The position numbers were made by a program, and so were the translations under genes. DNA of 62,740 bases from NCBI GenBank assembly GCA_028277845.1, contig JANQFL010000046.1, positions 1-62,740 on the forward strand. The letters run 5' to 3'. Below the pieces are notes generated by a model. The model had not been told where the DNA came from. It did no database searches and saw only the letters and a list, made by a program, of their open reading frames with translations. How positions within the stretch are numbered: position 1 is the first letter of the stretch; every line of letters begins with the position of its first letter. Shown in pieces: positions 1,043-9,076 of the stretch. Source of the stretch: Sneathiellales bacterium (lineage in GTDB: Bacteria; Pseudomonadota; Alphaproteobacteria; JANQFL01).

Positions 1043-2914
1043 TCAGCCCGCCGACCGATCGGCTTTGGCGTCCGTTGCAAAGCATAAAAAGCGATCGAAC
1101 AGCGCATTGAACGCAGCGGGCGCTTCCAGGAACGGCGCGTGTCCGGCGGTGCCGACGTTCCGCGGCGCGCCGCCGAAGATGTTTCCGTAGGTCAGGGTAC
1201 GGCAATACGCGTGATTGATGAACGGATCCGAAGGGCCGTTGATCATGGCGAAAGGGACGCGGCCATCGCGCAGTAGCTGCATCTGACGCGGCCAGTTGAT
1301 GGTTTTCAGTGTCGCGAATACCTGCTCGCGGGCCAGCCCGTCGGTCCGCCACACAGCCTGCCAGACCAAAGGTTCGTACGGCGTGTCGGGCCCGATGGTA
1401 TGGGTCGCATAGTTGCGTTTCTCATAAGGTGAGTGAAAGCGCTTGCCGGCCAGTTCCATGTGGGGTGACGGTATGTAGCCCCGCGGCATGTCGTCGGGGA
1501 ACTTGGTGATCGGCGACGTGCCGCTGATGGCCAAGCCGGCGATCGGATGGCCTTGCGCCGCGTATTCCAACGCGACATAGCCGCCGAGCGACCAGCCGAA
1601 CACGGCCGGTCGCCCCAGCCCGAGTTGATCGACGAGATCGCGCAGGATTTCGGCAAAGGCCTCGACACTGTAGTCGGCGTCCGGGTCCGCGTTGGGCGAC
1701 ACGCCATGTCCCGGCAGGTCGAAGGCGACCAGCCTGTAATGCTCCCGGTACGCGTCGAACTGATGGCGGAACACTTCCTTGCAGGACGAATTGCCGTGTA
1801 CGAAGACGATGGCCGTCCCTTCCCCTCCGGTGTCGCAAACCGATATCCGCCCGTGCCGCGTGTCGATCAACCGGTCGGTCGCGCCCATGACCGCCTTCCG
1901 GTCCGCGGCGCCGAACCGCCGCCGCCAATGTGCGACGGCGTTTGTCTTGAACCGGTTGACCAACCCCCAGCATTCCTGCAGGGCCGCGAACAGCCCGCCC
2001 GGATAAACGACCACCACGCCGACGATCAGTACGGCGATGATGATGTTGCGCCAGGCGCCGAAGTCCCCCAACCATTCCGTCACGACGGTAATGACGAAGG
2101 CCGCGATCAACGAGCCCCAGATGGTCGACACGCCCCCCAGCAACAGAATGGACAAGGTGATGGTCAGAAAGCCGAGACCGAACACATCCGGTGACGCGAC
2201 GCGCAGATAGGCACCGTAAAACCCACCGGCCAGGCCCGGGAAAACCGCCGACATGCAAAGCGTCAACAGGCGGATCCTGCCCTCCGACACGCCGCGGGAG
2301 ATGGCATAGTATTTGTTGTCCCGCAGCGCCTTGATGGCCCGGCCGAGCGACGAGCGTTCCAGCTTGTACAAATACACGGTCGAACACACGGTCAACAGCA
2401 GGGCGAGGTAGTAATACCCGATCCGGCCGTCCGCAGAGAGCTTGTATCCGGCGATCGTCAGGCGCGGCAGCAGTACCATGCCACTGGTGCCGCCGGTATA
2501 GTCCGATTGGCTGACGACGATCTGCAGCAGCAGTTGCGCCGCGGCGATGGTGACCAGGATGACGTAGATCCCTTCCAGCCGCAGGATGGGGATGGCCAGC
2601 AAGGCGGCAAAACCAACGGCCAGGACCGGGCCCGATGCCAGGGCGAGCCAAGGCTCCAGACCCAAGACCTTGGCCGTAATCCCGTAACCGTATAAACCGA
2701 TGGCGAAGAAGGTCATGTGGGCAAAGTTGACGATCCCGCCATAGCCCAGTGACAGATCCCAATTCGAGGCCAGAACGGCATAAATGAAGACCAGGATGAG
2801 AGCATGCCTGGCATAGGTTTCCGTGAAGACCAACGGAACGACCGCCAGCACGGCCATGACGGCCACGATCGGCCAGAACCCGTTGGTGCGTTGAAACGGC
2901 GGGGCGTACTTCAT
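1043..2914 (-). CDS. LivM-type ABC permease fused to an alpha/beta hydrolase
   Basis: One uninterrupted 623-residue reading frame carries two domains. Residues 1 to about 320 are a LivM-type branched-chain amino acid family permease with roughly nine hydrophobic segments and the family signature around GYGGIVNFAHMTFFAIG. After a basic linker, residues 345-612 form an alpha/beta hydrolase with oxyanion motif HGNS (373-376), nucleophile Ser442 in GWSLGG, acid Asp563 in GPSDPF and His592 in GTAGHAP, so the triad is complete. LivM C termini can also be fused to ATPases, so the hydrolase should be cytoplasmic. An internal ATG at 1888, with AAGG upstream, could also yield a free hydrolase. It is the last gene of the importer operon, 12 bases after the LivH-type permease. 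A permease-hydrolase fusion is unusual; substrate unknown. Confidence 0.9.
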   Translation of the reverse strand: MKYAPPFQRTNGFWPIVAVMAVLAVVPLVFTETYARHALILVFIYAVLASNWDLSLGYGGIVNFAHMTFFAIGLYGYGITAKVLGLEPWLALASGPVLAVGFAALLAIPILRLEGIYVILVTIAAAQLLLQIVVSQSDYTGGTSGMVLLPRLTIAGYKLSADGRIGYYYLALLLTVCSTVYLYKLERSSLGRAIKALRDNKYYAISRGVSEGRIRLLTLCMSAVFPGLAGGFYGAYLRVASPDVFGLGFLTITLSILLLGGVSTIWGSLIAAFVITVVTEWLGDFGAWRNIIIAVLIVGVVVVYPGGLFAALQECWGLVNRFKTNAVAHWRRRFGAADRKAVMGATDRLIDTRHGRISVCDTGGEGTAIVFVHGNSSCKEVFRHQFDAYREHYRLVAFDLPGHGVSPNADPDADYSVEAFAEILRDLVDQLGLGRPAVFGWSLGGYVALEYAAQGHPIAGLAISGTSPITKFPDDMPRGYIPSPHMELAGKRFHSPYEKRNYATHTIGPDTPYEPLVWQAVWRTDGLAREQVFATLKTINWPRQMQLLRDGRVPFAMINGPSDPFINHAYCRTLTYGNIFGGAPRNVGTAGHAPFLEAPAAFNALFDRFLCFATDAKADRSAG

Positions 2915-2926
2915 GACGGCTCCGCC

Positions 2927-3814
2927 TTAGAGTGTCTTGACCCGGCGGCCGAACAGACCCTCCGGCCTGATCAGCAGGACGACAATCATCAGTCCGAACA
3001 ACACGGCCGGCGTCCAGTAAAGGCCGAGGAAATACGAGGAGAAGGATTCAGCGATGCCGACGATGAATGCGGCATAGATAGGACTGGTAAACCGTGCCAC
3101 GCCCCCCAGGATGACAACCACCAGAGACTTCATCAACGGATCGGCGCCAAAAGCCGGGTTCATGAAACGCAGCGAGCCTATGAAAATACCGGCCAGTGCC
3201 GCCGTAGCCGCCGACAGGCCGATAGCGGCGGCGAACAAACGCGATACGTTGAAGCCCATCAATTCGGCCGCTTCGCGGTTCTGGGCGACAGCCCGCATGG
3301 CCCGGCCATAGGACGTACGCCGCAAAAACAACGCCAAAGCCAGCAGCGCGACCAGCGCAATTCCGAGCACCACGAAATCGTGCACGCCGATGGTGGCGCC
3401 AAACAATTCGAACTTGCTTCCGATGGGCGGTGCGATCTGCTTGTCACGTGGACCCCACGTCAAAAGGATGCCGTTTTCCAGCAGCGATGCCGCCGCCAAC
3501 GTGGTGATGACCGCCAGCAGCACCAGATTGGCGTTACGTTCGAAAGGCTTGATCAGGACATAGTGGGATGCGAAGCCGACGCAGAACATGACCACCATGG
3601 CGACAGCGGCCCCGAGCATGAAACCAAGGCCGCCTGAGGCCTGCTGCGACACTTCCCAGGCGATATAGGCGCCAAGGGCCACAAACGTGCCGTGGGCGAA
3701 ATTGAATACGCCCAACGTCGTCCATACCACCGCCAAACCGGTCGCCATGAGGGCATAGAGACCGCCCAGCAGAATACCCGACGTCAGGATAAACAGAAGC
3801 GTGTCCAACGCCAT
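2927..3814 (-). CDS. LivH-type ABC transporter permease
   Basis: This 295-residue inner-membrane protein belongs to the LivH family, the second permease of high-affinity branched-chain amino acid type importers. It shows the diagnostic N-terminal stretch ALMATGLAVVWTTLGVFNFA and the loop NREAAELMGFNV that contacts the ATPase. About eight hydrophobic segments are visible. Its ATG overlaps the stop codon of the upstream LivF-type ATPase (TGATG), indicating translational coupling. It pairs with the LivM-hydrolase fusion to form the membrane channel. The family transports amino acids, amides, urea and small aromatic acids; the sequence does not reveal which. Confidence 0.93.
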   Translation of the reverse strand: MALDTLLFILTSGILLGGLYALMATGLAVVWTTLGVFNFAHGTFVALGAYIAWEVSQQASGGLGFMLGAAVAMVVMFCVGFASHYVLIKPFERNANLVLLAVITTLAAASLLENGILLTWGPRDKQIAPPIGSKFELFGATIGVHDFVVLGIALVALLALALFLRRTSYGRAMRAVAQNREAAELMGFNVSRLFAAAIGLSAATAALAGIFIGSLRFMNPAFGADPLMKSLVVVILGGVARFTSPIYAAFIVGIAESFSSYFLGLYWTPAVLFGLMIVVLLIRPEGLFGRRVKTL

Positions 3815-4599
3815 CAGCCGGCCTTCCCAAACATCATGGCCATGACTTCGTCATGGGACGGCATGGCGTCGCCGGCGATTTCACGGGTGATGGAGCCATG
3901 ATCGAACAGGTACATTCGGTCGACCAGACTGGTCAGGAATTCCAGGTTCTGATCGACAATGATCAACGGCACTTCGCTGTCGCGGATCTTGCCGATGGCC
4001 TCCCCCAATTCGATGCGCAGTTTGGGCGACAGGCCCAGGGTCGGCTCGTCCAGCACGAGTAGGCGCGGCAAGGCCAGCAGGCCCACGGCAATCGACAGCA
4101 TCTGTCTCTCGCCACCCGACAGGTAGCGAATTTTCGAGTGCCAGCGCTCCCGCAGCCGAGGAAACAGCATGTCCACGCGCCGGTGCATGTCCTTGATTCC
4201 GCTTCGCCCCCGTGCCGCGCGGGGGGCGATATCCAGCACTTCCTCGACGGTCAATTCGGGAAACAGGAGATTGCCTTGCATGACGTAAATAAGCCCCTGT
4301 TCCACCACCGTGGCCGCTTTGATGCGGCGCTTGCGGAACAGGTCGTAGTTAAGATGTCGCGACGTGCGTGCGGCCATCCGTCCGGCGGCATTCAAGCGAT
4401 TTCCCGCGAAAACAATGTCCCCTTCCCACGGATCGATAACGCCGGCGATCGTCTTCAGCAGCGTTGTCTTGCCGTGGCCGTTGGGTCCGAACAAACCGAC
4501 GGATTCGTTCTCATAAATCGTCAGGTCGATGCCTCGGAATACCGACACCGGCGGATACCCGCCACTCAAACCGCGCAATTCCAGCAACGGCGCGGTCAT
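3814..4599 (-). CDS. LivF-type ABC transporter ATP-binding protein
   Basis: This 261-residue ATPase has Walker A GPNGHGKTT (about residues 39-47), the signature LSGGERQ, Walker B LLVLDEPTLGL and an H-loop at VDQN. These are all expected of the LivF subunit. Between Walker A and the Q-loop it has about 20 extra residues (around AARTSRHLNYDLFRKRR) compared with ordinary LivF. The ATG overlaps the stop of the LivG-type gene by four bases, and its own stop overlaps the LivH start. It powers import together with the LivG-type partner, whose signature motif is degenerate, so this subunit may contribute most of the conserved ATP-site residues. Confidence 0.93.
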   Translation of the reverse strand: MTAPLLELRGLSGGYPPVSVFRGIDLTIYENESVGLFGPNGHGKTTLLKTIAGVIDPWEGDIVFAGNRLNAAGRMAARTSRHLNYDLFRKRRIKAATVVEQGLIYVMQGNLLFPELTVEEVLDIAPRAARGRSGIKDMHRRVDMLFPRLRERWHSKIRYLSGGERQMLSIAVGLLALPRLLVLDEPTLGLSPKLRIELGEAIGKIRDSEVPLIIVDQNLEFLTSLVDRMYLFDHGSITREIAGDAMPSHDEVMAMMFGKAG

Positions 4600-5321
4600 G
4601 CCGGTTGTCCGAGGTACGCGGCGATGACGGCGGGATCGCGGGTCACTTCGGCGGGATCGCCTTCGGCAATGATGTTGCCTTGCTCCATGACCAGCAGCCG
4701 GGAGGATACGGACATCAGCAGCGGCAAAACGTGTTCGATCAGCATGATGGCGATACCGCGCCCGTTGAGCCTGAGAATGGTTTCACGCACCCAGTCGATT
4801 TCATGTTCGACCAACGACGACGCCGGCTCATCCAGCAACAGGAGCTTTGGGTTCTGCGCCACCGCCGTCGCGATCATCAATTGCTTTTGATAGAATACCG
4901 GCATGGTCGCCGCCGGCATGTTGTGGAAGTTGCGCGGAAAGCCAACGATATCGGATACCTCGTCGGCCAGGCGTTCCGCCTCACGGCCACGGATGCCAAG
5001 AGTCTGCTCGATGGCCACGAGAATGTTGTCGATACAGGACAGGGACTGGAAAACGGCCTCTCGCTGGAACGTGCGGACGATACCCAGCCGGGTGATCCGG
5101 TTGTCGGCCAGATGCTCGACCCGGCGGCCCCGAAACGTCACCACCCCTGCGTCGGCGCCGAAGGGAATCCGGCTGATCAGGTTGAACAGAGTCGATTTGC
5201 CGGACCCGTTGGGCCCGGCAATACCGAGAATTTCGCCGTCCTCGACATCGAACGAGAGGCCGTTGACGGCGACCAAGGCGCCGAACGCCTTGGTCAGGTT
5301 GCGGACTTCGAGAAGCGCCAC
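4596..5321 (-). CDS. LivG-type ABC transporter ATP-binding protein with degenerate signature motif
   Basis: This 241-residue ATPase has a good Walker A (GPNGSGKSTL, about residues 36-45), Walker B LLLLDEPASSL and H-loop IEHV, as in LivG. The position of the ABC signature, normally LSYGQ or LSGGQ, reads MPVFYQ just before KQLMIATAVAQNP. This suggests an asymmetric pair in which one composite ATP site is weak. It is the first ATPase gene after the binding-protein gene and overlaps the next gene by four bases. The rest of the fold is intact, so I read it as functional rather than decayed. Confidence 0.92.
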   Translation of the reverse strand: MALLEVRNLTKAFGALVAVNGLSFDVEDGEILGIAGPNGSGKSTLFNLISRIPFGADAGVVTFRGRRVEHLADNRITRLGIVRTFQREAVFQSLSCIDNILVAIEQTLGIRGREAERLADEVSDIVGFPRNFHNMPAATMPVFYQKQLMIATAVAQNPKLLLLDEPASSLVEHEIDWVRETILRLNGRGIAIMLIEHVLPLLMSVSSRLLVMEQGNIIAEGDPAEVTRDPAVIAAYLGQPA

Positions 5322-5344: not shown

Positions 5345-6586
5345 TCAATTCTTCATCCAGACGGGTTTTTTGAATGTCCCCGCCTTGAACCTGTCGGGGC
5401 TGATCATGACGCCGGCGCCGTCCTGCAATTGGAAGAACGTCACCGGAATGAGGTTCAGCCCCTGCTTGGCGACGTGGGTCTTTTGGTCGAATTCGAGAAA
5501 GCCCGCCGTGATCGGCCGCTTGATCCGGCCGATGGCCTTGCCGATCGCCGTATGGTCGGTGGGGTCCCCCACTGTCGCCAGCGCCTCGAAATACAGCGTC
5601 GTCATTTCGTAAAGACCGGTGCCGTAAGCACCGGAATCGATGCCGTATTCCTTTTTGTAGCGCGCGCTGACCTCCTTGCCGCGCGGATGGGCGTCGACGT
5701 TCAAGGTGGCGCCGATGGCGTTGTACAGAATACCGTTGGATTTCTCCTTGGTCAGCTTGACGAATTCGGGCACCAACGGAGCGTACTGCAGGAACACCAC
5801 CGAGTCGGTCGGGTTTTCGCGAAACTGATTTGTGAACAGGGCCGCGTTGGACGGGATGTAGTCCGTGTTGATCACCACATCCGGCGGGTTCTCCCGCACC
5901 TTGGCCAGCATCGGCCGCCAATCGCTGACCGGGCCGAACGGTACCAGTTCGTCGACCGTCACTGTCCAGCCCGCCTTCTTGAAGGCGACCTTCATGCCTT
6001 CCGAGATGGTTTTGGAATACGGATTGTCCGACGAAATGATCGCCACCGTCTTGTTCTTCAACGGGAAGTGCCCCGCTGCCGACAAGGCTTCGATGGTCGG
6101 CGTCACATCGGTTTCGTAACCCTTGAAATCGGCGGTGAACGACCAGCAGCAATTGAAGGCGTCCGGGTCCTTGGACACGATGGCGGCGAACTGGGGCGAC
6201 GGGCCGGCGGCCAAATACGGCATGTTGGCTTCGGCCATCAGTTCCACCTCGAACATCGACAGGCTGGCATAGCCGGTGAGAATGACGTGCACGCCCTCTG
6301 TCGAGAGCAGCCGTTCCGCCGCCGACGAGACCTTGGCGGCGGAGTGGTCGACCACATCGGCGGTCACGACTTCGAACGTGTGTCCGGCCACGCCGCCCTT
6401 CGCGTTGGCTTCCTTGACGGCCAGTTTGACGCCGCGGACAAATTCCTCTCCGTCAGATGCGGTGGGGCCGGTCAACGGCGCCAGTACACCGATCTTGACC
6501 GAGTCGGCGAGCGCCGTCGCCGTAGTCAGGATTGTCAGTGAAGCAAAGGCCGCAACGATCGCCAATGCCCGTGTTACTTTGCACAT
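5345..6586 (-). CDS. Periplasmic substrate-binding protein of a Liv-type ABC importer
   Basis: This 413-residue exported protein starts with a signal peptide (basic MCKVTR, hydrophobic core, cleavage near ATALA-DS). It continues as a type I periplasmic binding protein with the family opening KIGVLAPLTGPTASDGEEFVRG. The start at 6586 has AGGAGG seven bases upstream; a longer frame beginning at 6631 lacks a site and would bury the signal peptide. It leads the importer operon and is transcribed away from the LuxR gene. It would deliver the ligand to the LivH-type permease and the LivM-hydrolase fusion. The pocket residues cannot be matched by eye to leucine, amide or urea binders, so the ligand is open. 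Confidence 0.93.
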   Translation of the reverse strand: MCKVTRALAIVAAFASLTILTTATALADSVKIGVLAPLTGPTASDGEEFVRGVKLAVKEANAKGGVAGHTFEVVTADVVDHSAAKVSSAAERLLSTEGVHVILTGYASLSMFEVELMAEANMPYLAAGPSPQFAAIVSKDPDAFNCCWSFTADFKGYETDVTPTIEALSAAGHFPLKNKTVAIISSDNPYSKTISEGMKVAFKKAGWTVTVDELVPFGPVSDWRPMLAKVRENPPDVVINTDYIPSNAALFTNQFRENPTDSVVFLQYAPLVPEFVKLTKEKSNGILYNAIGATLNVDAHPRGKEVSARYKKEYGIDSGAYGTGLYEMTTLYFEALATVGDPTDHTAIGKAIGRIKRPITAGFLEFDQKTHVAKQGLNLIPVTFFQLQDGAGVMISPDRFKAGTFKKPVWMKN

Positions 6587-6799
6587 GATGTGCCTCCTTG
6601 ATGGTGCGACAGGCGCAAATCGGATATTCAAGGCAGGCTACAAATCGCGGAGCTTGGCTCACAATTGCAAAGGTTTGCTATTTTCGTGCACAGGCACACC
6701 GATTTTGGCTAAAATTCCCTATGGGACAATGCCCGCACTTGTGTCGGTGTGCGGATCGGTCCGAGGAACGGCTTGCCGAGGGGAAAGCAAGGGGGATAC
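6587..6799. promoter_or_regulatory. Divergent promoter region between LuxR solo and importer operon
   Basis: This intergenic region separates two divergent starts. It is locally AT-richer and contains two short inverted repeats close together: GCAAA-N2-TTTGC at 6667-6678 and GTGC-N4-GCAC at 6686-6697. Neither is a textbook lux box, but their position midway between the two starts fits an operator for the LuxR regulator. Ribosome binding sites are clear on both sides (AGGAGG for the binding protein, AAGGGGG for the regulator). Confidence 0.5.
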
Positions 6800-7531
6800 A
6801 TGAGACCCTGGCTGGAGGAGAGCGATTATCGGGATAGCGATACGGCGGCCGATGTCGACACCCGCATGCGCGGTCTGGTCGAAGCCCTCGGCCTGGATCA
6901 TTTCTCCTACATGGTGTTGAGCCCGCCGCGCGACGTACCCTTCACCATCGAAAACACCATCCGCACCAGTTATCCCGAAGAATGGATCGGCCGCTACGCC
7001 GAATTGCGTTATTTCGAGGTCGATCCGGTCGCCGCCCTTTCGAAAACCTCGACACAGCCGTTCTATTGGGGCCAAGGCCGGTTTCTACGCGGTTTCAAGA
7101 AACTCCAGCGCATCGTATTCGATGAGGCCCGCTGCTTCGATATCTCCTACGGTCTGGCCATACCCATGCGCGGACCGGCGGGCGAAACGGGTGTGTTCAA
7201 CGTCGTATCGTCGAACCGGCGCTATCTGCATGAAGTGACGCGTGGCAAACACGCGCGCCTTTTTTCCGCGGCCTTCGGCACCCACGAACGCATCATGCGC
7301 CAGGAAATGGCCTGCGCCGACACCGGAGAGAACGCCGTCGAACTCTCCCTGCGTGAACGGGAATGCCTGCAATGGACCATGGAGGGCAAGACCGCCCGGG
7401 ACATCGCCACGATCCTCGGATTGTCCGTGTCGACAGTCAATCACCACGCCTCCTCCGCCGTTCGCAAGCTCGGCGCCCTTAACAAACACCACGCCGCCGT
7501 CAAGGCCATGAAGCAGGGATTGATACGGTAG
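6800..7531 (+). CDS. LuxR family transcriptional regulator with autoinducer-binding domain (solo)
   Basis: This 243-residue regulator has an N-terminal autoinducer-binding domain and a C-terminal LuxR helix-turn-helix. Trp62, Tyr66, Asp75, Pro76, Trp90 and Gly118 reproduce the six conserved AHL-pocket residues of TraR (57, 61, 70, 71, 85, 113) with identical spacing. In the DNA-binding domain Glu186, Leu190 and Gly196 match TraR 178, 182 and 188. All nine quorum-sensing signature residues are therefore present. The start at 6800 follows AAGGGGG; an upstream ATG at 6749 has no site. No luxI lies in the window, so it is a solo here. It faces the importer operon divergently and is the obvious candidate to control it. 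Confidence 0.93.
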   Translation: MRPWLEESDYRDSDTAADVDTRMRGLVEALGLDHFSYMVLSPPRDVPFTIENTIRTSYPEEWIGRYAELRYFEVDPVAALSKTSTQPFYWGQGRFLRGFKKLQRIVFDEARCFDISYGLAIPMRGPAGETGVFNVVSSNRRYLHEVTRGKHARLFSAAFGTHERIMRQEMACADTGENAVELSLRERECLQWTMEGKTARDIATILGLSVSTVNHHASSAVRKLGALNKHHAAVKAMKQGLIR

Positions 7532-7630: not shown

Positions 7631-9076
7631 TTATGCCTGCGGCTGGCCGAGACGCCGGGCGATGCCGGCGCCGTAAGCCGGATCGGCCTGGGCGAAGTGG
7701 CCGATCTGTGTGCGGACGATATGCTCCGGCACACCCTGCATGGCGCCGGCAATGGCATCCATCAGGCGCTCCCGTTCGTCCGCCGGCATCAGGCGGAACA
7801 GGTTGCCGGCCTGGGTGTAATCGTCGTTACCCGCGCGGTGGTCGTGGCGGTCGGCGACGTCGCCAATGGCCAGGGGCGGTTCCTTGGCCGCCGGGTCTTC
7901 CAAGGGTCCGCCGACCGAGTTGGGCTCGTAGTTGACGCCGCCGCCGCCATTGCCGTCGAAGCGCATGGCGCCATCGCGGTTGTAGCTGTGCATCGGGCAC
8001 TTGGGCGCGTTGACCGGCAGGCTCTGGTAATTCACCCCCACCCGGTAGCGATGCGCATCGGCGTAGGAGAAGACGCGGAACTGCAGCATCTTGTCCGGGC
8101 TGTGGCCGATGCCCGGCGGCACGTTGGCCGGCGAGAACGCCGCCTGCTCGACCTCGGCGTGGTAGTTGTCCGGGTTGCGGTTCAATTCCAGTTCACCGAT
8201 CTCGATCAGCGGATAGTCCGCGTGCGGCCATACCTTGGTCAGATCGAACGGATTGTAGGACGTGTTGTCCGCCTCGGCCTCCGGCATGATCTGCACGCAC
8301 ACCCGCCATTTGGGGTGATCACCGTTCTCGATCGCTTCATAGAGGTCGCGCTGGTGGCTCTCCCGGTCATTGCCGATCAGGTCGGCGGACTGGGCTTCGC
8401 TGATGGTCTCGATGCCTTGCCGGGTCTTGAAGTGGAATTTCACCCAGAAGCGCTCCCCATCGGCATTGATCAACGAGTAGGTGTGCGAACCGTAGCCGTT
8501 CATGTGGCGGTAGGTACGCGGCAGGCCGCGGTCCGAGAACAGGATGGTGATCTGGTGCAGGGCCTCGGGCGATTGCGACCAAAAATCCCACATGGCGGTG
8601 GCGTTGCGCAGATTGGTGCGCGGGTCGCGCTTCTGGGTATGGATGAAATCGGGAAATTTGTACGGGTCGCGTACAAAGAACACCGGCGTATTGTTGCCGA
8701 CCAGGTCCCAATTGCCTTCCTCGGTGTAGAACTTGACGGCAAAACCCCGCACGTCCCGTTCGGCATCGGCCGCCCCCTTCTCGCCCGCGACGGTGGAAAA
8801 ACGCAGCAACACGCCGGTTTGCTTGCCGACTTCAGAGAACAGCTTGGCCTTGGAATAGGCGCTGATGTCGTTGGTCACCGTGAAGGTGCCATAGGCGGCG
8901 GACCCCTTGGCGTGCACCACCCGTTCGGGGATGCGCTCGCGATTGAAGTGGGCGTGTTTTTCGAACAGCTGCCAGTCCTGCACCAGCAACGGGCCGCGCG
9001 GCCCCGCGGTCAGGCTATTCTGGTTGTCACCGACGGGAATACCGGCGGCGGTGGTCAATGTGGGACGGTCGGCCAT
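7631..9076 (-). CDS. katA: Catalase, monofunctional small-subunit haem type
   Basis: This 481-residue enzyme breaks down hydrogen peroxide to water and oxygen. The haem catalase core is unmistakable: distal His in [12 protein letters not shown], the catalytic Asn in [19 protein letters not shown], and the proximal Tyr region [14 protein letters not shown]. Length and the absence of a C-terminal flavodoxin-like domain place it among small-subunit (clade 3) catalases, which bind NADPH. It has no signal peptide, so it is probably cytoplasmic. AAGGAG lies eight bases before the ATG. The OxyR gene lies directly upstream on the same strand, and an OxyR-like palindrome lies between them, so peroxide induction is expected. 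Confidence 0.98.

Follow-up and report, generated by a model that had tools for sequence, protein, structure and literature searches.

The locus described here raises the question of whether a transporter permease that runs in frame into a complete hydrolase is a genuine protein and, if so, what such a combination does for the cell. In the window, by which we mean the whole 62,740-nucleotide stretch that was analyzed, a single uninterrupted open reading frame extends on the minus strand from 2914 to 1043 and encodes 623 amino acids. Residues 1-303 (2006-2914) form a LivM-type permease part, with a BPD_transp_2 domain at residues 38-300 (PF02653; E 1.8e-34), and residues 347-611 (1082-1876) form an AidH-like lactonase domain, within which Pfam places Abhydrolase_6/1 at residues 368-604 (E 1.3e-23). 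The preliminary description of this DNA had read the frame as a fusion, allowing that a frameshift or an assembly error might have joined two genes, or that the fusion might be absent from close relatives. All 23 relatives that we compared, 22 loci found by scanning a single genome for each species and one (L009) from a further genome, carry LivM and hydrolase in one frame without a frameshift, with per-domain identities of 44-81%. Five further fused loci (L086 and L145-L148) were judged to be in frame because open frames of 636-913 amino acids cover both domains, which brings the number of distinct fused loci, window included, to 29. In a tree of the hydrolase, all 29 fused domains fall into one clade with 100/100 support. 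Because the frame is intact in 23/23 relatives and the 29 domains are monophyletic, these observations indicate one old fusion and not an artefact; the same in-frame junction recurs in assemblies other than our own, assembly error was ruled out, and we give the merging of two genes by a misassembly or frameshift practically no probability. The LivM-hydrolase fusion is thus real and goes back to one old event. It is spread over several alphaproteobacterial families and is rare, being found in 2 of 385 genomes of the class at E <= 1e-100, one of them the genome of the window. In a sample of 398 genomes of the phylum, the full-length fusion occurred only in that genome and in one other (G450), and no fusion was found outside the class.

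The two halves are joined by a basic helical linker of about 45 residues (residues 304-346, 1877-2005), delimited by alignment, charge count and two helices (307-334 and 336-343) in a predicted model. In the window protein it contains 8 K/R against 3 D/E, and the K/R count lies between 7 and 12 in each of the 24 aligned fusions (the window and its 23 relatives). Since the complete hydrolase follows the last permease helix through a basic linker, it most likely lies on the cytoplasmic side, as had been suggested when an enzyme at the cytoplasmic mouth of the channel was first proposed. The accompanying idea, that import is coupled to hydrolysis, we retain as a sensible reading of a conserved in-frame fusion. 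A further suggestion, that an internal ATG releases a free hydrolase, was not supported. The ATG exists (Met343, 1886-1888 on the minus strand) and is preceded by GGAAGG, but the corresponding column holds Met in only 15 of the 24 fusions, with Thr in 6 and Leu in 3, so a separate hydrolase product is no conserved feature, and we rejected it as a general one. That the window gene itself yields two products, the full-length protein and a free hydrolase starting at this codon, would be in keeping with the GGAAGG and with the occurrence of LivM and AidH as unfused neighbors in L136 and L137; with a codon other than Met in 9/24 fusions, we consider it very unlikely.

To whom the hydrolase is related is clear from both sequence and fold. 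Among PDB proteins, phmmer matched the AidH entries with E values between 3e-55 and 1e-54 (4g5x, 3.1e-55), and the next match was a putative hydrolase at E 4e-14. The AlphaFold model of the fusion has a mean pLDDT of 72.6, with hydrolase blocks mostly at 80-97, cap-region blocks at 72-86 and lower values in the permease, a half that was predicted with low confidence and left out of the analysis. Foldseek ranks 1-8 are all AidH (TMt 0.90-0.92), followed by a match at E 5e-12; 4g8b superimposes on the hydrolase model with TMt 0.92 and rmsd 2.0, and the model has the AidH fold with its cap domain. Proline iminopeptidase models from NCBIfam matched the hydrolase only far below their cut-off. AidH of Ochrobactrum sp. 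T63 was shown by mass spectrometry and substrate complexes to be a lactonase of N-acyl-homoserine lactones (AHLs), with Ser102, His248 and Glu219 as its triad and Tyr160 hydrogen-bonded to the lactone ring (available sections of PMC3532132). The counterparts in the fusion, all encoded on the minus strand, are the nucleophile Ser442 (1589-1591), the base His592 (1139-1141) and the acid Asp563 (1226-1228), each invariant in 24/24 fusions, so that the triad already noted in the window is present in every aligned fusion, and Tyr502 (1409-1411), which is Tyr in 21/24 and Phe in 3 and corresponds to Tyr160. Also identical to AidH in 24/24 are H31, G32, N33, S34, W101, S102 and L103, as well as R179, T180, D181, G182, F221 and H248. 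Fold, nucleophile, histidine, the HGNS oxyanion motif and the RTDGxAR motif are common to both, and no metal site is expected; AidH, however, is a free enzyme with a Glu as its acid, whereas the fused hydrolase is joined to a permease and uses Asp. Three pocket differences are fixed in 24/24 fusions (H106Y, F138Y and E219D), and together with the replacement of Tyr160 by Phe in 3/24 they are the reason why we name the domain AidH-like and not AidH. The fused hydrolase is thus a predicted AHL lactonase; given the fixed pocket differences and an identity to AidH of only 33-38%, its acyl group or whole substrate may differ.

It is the surroundings, namely the operon, a LuxR-type regulator and a palindrome, none of them considered in the preliminary description, that give the fusion its meaning. 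Upstream of it on the minus strand lie genes for a LivH-type permease (2927-3814, PF02653), a LivF-type ATPase (3814-4599, PF00005; UrtE/LivF-like in NCBIfam, below the cut-off), a LivG-type ATPase (4596-5321, PF00005 and PF12399) and a periplasmic solute-binding protein (SBP) with a signal-like N-terminal helix (5345-6586, PF13458). A BPD_transp_2 permease with LivH, LivG, LivF and SBP partners constitutes the HAAT/LivM importer set, and in every locus whose contig extends far enough the genes follow the order SBP-LivG-LivF-LivH-fusion. In its genes and domain families the operon matches the LivFGHMK-type (HAAT) branched-chain amino acid transporters, but its LivM bears a C-terminal lactonase-like domain, it reaches none of the cut-offs that NCBIfam sets at equivalog or subfamily level for LivM, LivH, LivF and LivG, and the solved structure closest to its SBP, 3h5l, is a protein without a known ligand. 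Sequence and fold searches gave SBP neighbors with mixed ligands (pyroglutamate, aromatics and a fatty acid). Of the gene clusters common to at least four loci, all but the transporter genes, the fusion and LuxR are overlapping shadow ORFs.

Divergent from the SBP gene, a LuxR-type solo regulator is encoded on the plus strand at 6800-7531 (PF03472 and PF00196, the Autoind_bind and GerE domains); its ATG start was set by comparison with relatives, in a frame open from a GTG at 6749. A LuxR with an autoinducer-binding domain occupies this position in 24 of the 28 fused loci that could be judged, being absent from L032, L070, L086 and L147, and L028 is cut off. The residues W57, Y61, D70, P71, W85 and G113 (TraR numbering), which we take to be the canonical AHL-pocket set of LuxR-type receptors, are kept in 21/21 aligned LuxR proteins and in RhlR. 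This is the only PF03472 protein in the genome of the window, which is 98.5% complete and gave no match to the LuxI synthase family (PF00765). Although the control genomes of this search were silent, it did detect synthases in 13 of the 23 genomes searched, so the absence of LuxI is credible. In the plant-responsive class of LuxR proteins, W57 and/or Y61 are replaced, according to the portions available of PMC7301841 and PMC4981722; we rejected membership in this OryR/PipR-like class, since both residues are kept here and the hydrolase is AidH-like. The regulator is therefore best classified, from its residues, as an AHL-type solo receptor, and AHL binding is predicted. In L136, a second canonical LuxR-type regulator (153-887) was observed; the unfused SBP-LivGFHM-AidH cluster of that locus lies about 3.2 kb downstream of it.

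Between luxR and the SBP gene we identified a lux-box-like palindrome, TAGCAAACCTTTGCAATTG (6662-6680, read on the minus strand), with arms GCAAA/TTTGC. A putative -35-like TTGTGA (6659-6664) and a -10-like TAGCCT (6635-6640), the latter assigned from its position relative to the palindrome and both on the minus strand, would place the center of the palindrome near -43. This is the usual binding place of LuxR-type activators. The sites of 15 loci from the larger subgroup, chosen because the site was visible by eye, were used to build a matrix, and in 15/15 leave-one-out tests the palindrome ranked first among all positions of its own locus; near-identical loci (L022/L023/L025 and L030/L031) were withheld together. 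The fused locus L145, outside the training set, has an identical palindrome, and a second subgroup of five loci has a related site, TTTTGCAAGATYTRCCAGT. Neither type was found in L040, L146 and L148, which are fused and bear a LuxR. Upstream of the SBP gene, the palindrome was not found in 14/14 unfused loci, in 4/4 fused loci without LuxR or in 4/4 loci without AidH; across these three sets, the best chance score, 19.0, came from elsewhere in L032. A regulon search of the genome of the window with a two-mismatch pattern returned one perfect match, its own reverse reading and one two-mismatch match, against three for the reversed-pattern control, and thus no second good site.

The reading that we favor, with moderate confidence, is that of an AHL import-and-hydrolysis system controlled by a LuxR solo, with the fusion as its membrane component, by which the cell would probably sense the signals of other bacteria, take them up and degrade them. 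AHL is the presumed substrate on the grounds of homology, receptor residues and gene association. The LuxR-type solo would bind, inside the cell, an AHL that other bacteria produce and then activate the divergent operon through the palindrome ahead of it. AHL reaching the periplasm would be captured by the SBP and pass through a channel formed by LivH and the LivM half, driven by LivG and LivF; at its cytoplasmic mouth, the lactone ring would be opened by the AidH-like half. Ring opening would trap the molecule as acyl-homoserine, abolish it as a signal and possibly supply it to catabolism, and hydrolysis of the AHL would turn the operon off again. Activation rather than repression, the direction of transport and metabolic trapping are what we infer from this arrangement. 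AHLs can cross membranes by diffusion and are generally treated as freely diffusing (PMC4981722, in the text available). Importing a permeable signal would make sense if its external concentration were very low or its chain long, and the signal would stay trapped because the charged acyl-homoserine cannot diffuse back out.

AidH-like genes that are not fused bear on how firmly AHL can be named. With AidH as the query, 53 places were found in 46 of 247 genomes of one Rhizobiaceae-like family, and context was inspected for 39: 10 are fused, including 5 that the first scan had counted among the relatives, 14 are unfused beside a transporter and 15 lack a complete transporter. The 14 unfused genes (L084, L085, L124-L129, L131, L133, L134 and L136-L138), in Rhizobiaceae-type loci, are AidH orthologues that adjoin the same transporter subfamily, with AidH divergent in 11, following LivM in line in 2 and upstream in line in 1. 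They share 46-73% identity with AidH, 13 of them at least 54%, and all the AidH pocket residues compared are present in the divergent cousins L084 and L085. All 14 clusters contain an M20 deacylase-type gene, and RpiR-type (8), N-formylglutamate amidohydrolase-type (7), isochorismatase-type (5) and glutamine-synthetase-like (5) genes also occur, family names having been checked on one representative each (PF01546 for M20). The M20 enzyme could cleave N-acyl-homoserine, and these loci are possibly a native cluster for AidH in the catabolism of AHLs or N-acyl compounds. Among the 15 loci without a complete transporter are L132, with a partial SBP, and L122 and L123, 90% matches to AidH for which no transporter was found within the fetched flanks. 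Likewise, 11 standalone AidH-like genes from the class sample (13 places less the two fused) had no transporter in the stretches fetched, some of which are short contigs. Conversely, the same transporter subfamily occurs without any AidH-like enzyme in L044 and L087-L090, so the subfamily may originally have carried a different N-acyl or amide compound; in four of these (L087, L089, L090 and L044) the transporter was observed beside M20 deacylase-type genes. In the hydrolase tree, a clade of 14 rows (100/98) takes in AidH together with 11 transporter-linked genes. The fused clade does not nest with this group, so the fused and unfused associations may be separate. In the LivM tree, the fused clade is sister to one with divergent AidH (100/98).

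A substrate other than AHL, be it a different acyl group or a different ester or lactone altogether, is a less probable reading, and the changes fixed in the fusions at tunnel positions of AidH, the AidH loci without transporter and the transporters without AidH leave room for it. LuxR solos with all conserved AHL residues, such as CarR and MalR, may need no AHL (PMC4981722, from the sections at hand), roseobacters have N-acyl alanine methyl esters that are analogues of AHLs (PMC11580390, likewise in part), and the ligands of the SBP's fold neighbors would also allow it. Against this, the residues specific to AidH, including Tyr160 in 21/24, and the canonical LuxR pocket in 21/21 both point to AHLs, and AidH orthologues accompany the same transporter. 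A more distant alternative is that the system imports N-acyl or N-formyl amino compounds as nutrients, aided by an esterase, and that its control by LuxR is incidental and not for signaling. The M20, N-formylglutamate amidohydrolase, isochorismatase, glutamine-synthetase-like and RpiR genes of the unfused relatives would suit such a role, as would those transporter relatives that lack AidH. None of these genes, however, is conserved near the fused form, whose constant neighbors are the transporter genes and LuxR only. Moreover, HqiA, an isochorismatase-family enzyme, is a proven AHL lactonase (PMC5430456, as far as the text available goes), so part of the unfused gene set also fits AHL breakdown, and we regard the nutrient importer as unlikely.

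The nearest studied logic to the proposed AHL import-and-hydrolysis system, by analogy, is that of PipR-AapABCDEF-PipA in Pseudomonas GM79, where a LuxR-type solo likewise lies beside genes for an ABC importer and hydrolases. There, PipR cannot respond without its ABC transporter, and the response is weakened by hydrolases that are believed to terminate the signal (PMC4981722, in part). That system differs in its peptide-type transporter, its peptidases, its ethanolamine-derivative ligand and the lack of a fusion, and where the LuxR described here keeps the AHL tyrosine, PipR has the OryR-type Trp. The FadL protein of sinorhizobia takes up long-chain AHLs and so provides dedicated uptake at the outer membrane (PMC9938287, available portion) but, unlike the system described here, is a channel without an ATP-driven inner-membrane step or a hydrolase. 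Among the subgroups named in the available part of a survey of LuxR solos (PMC10134790), none has this gene set. In the open-licence papers searched, we came across neither a LivM-hydrolase fusion nor an ABC importer for AHLs, alone or fused to a lactonase. The Lsr system for AI-2 likewise imports a quorum signal by a dedicated route and processes it inside the cell; it differs in signal, transporter family and enzyme chemistry. The chances seem to us about even that this is the first dedicated AHL ABC importer with a built-in lactonase, through which bacteria without a synthase sense, import and destroy their neighbors' signals with one LuxR-controlled unit. Since one conserved operon links an AHL-type receptor to an ATP-driven importer that is fused with an AidH-like lactonase, inner-membrane import of AHLs becomes directly testable, as does quenching as a dedicated eavesdrop-and-consume trait. 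The operon also bears on the role of quorum-quenching enzymes such as AidH in their native hosts, and the unfused AidH-transporter pairs of Rhizobiaceae-type genomes offer a second system for the same questions.

Finally, some genes around the operon and elsewhere in the genome were noted. Convergent with luxR lies what is presumably a catalase-like gene (7631-9076). Directly downstream of the operon, a GNAT acetyltransferase gene (181-879) is not conserved in the relatives; it falls outside the clusters common to at least four loci and was rejected as part of the module. On another contig of the same genome (C12), a second LivM-type operon (L020, 4332-6240) has an unfused alpha/beta hydrolase gene directly after livM, a comparable pairing of import and hydrolysis, but the product of this gene scores far below the AidH-like kin.
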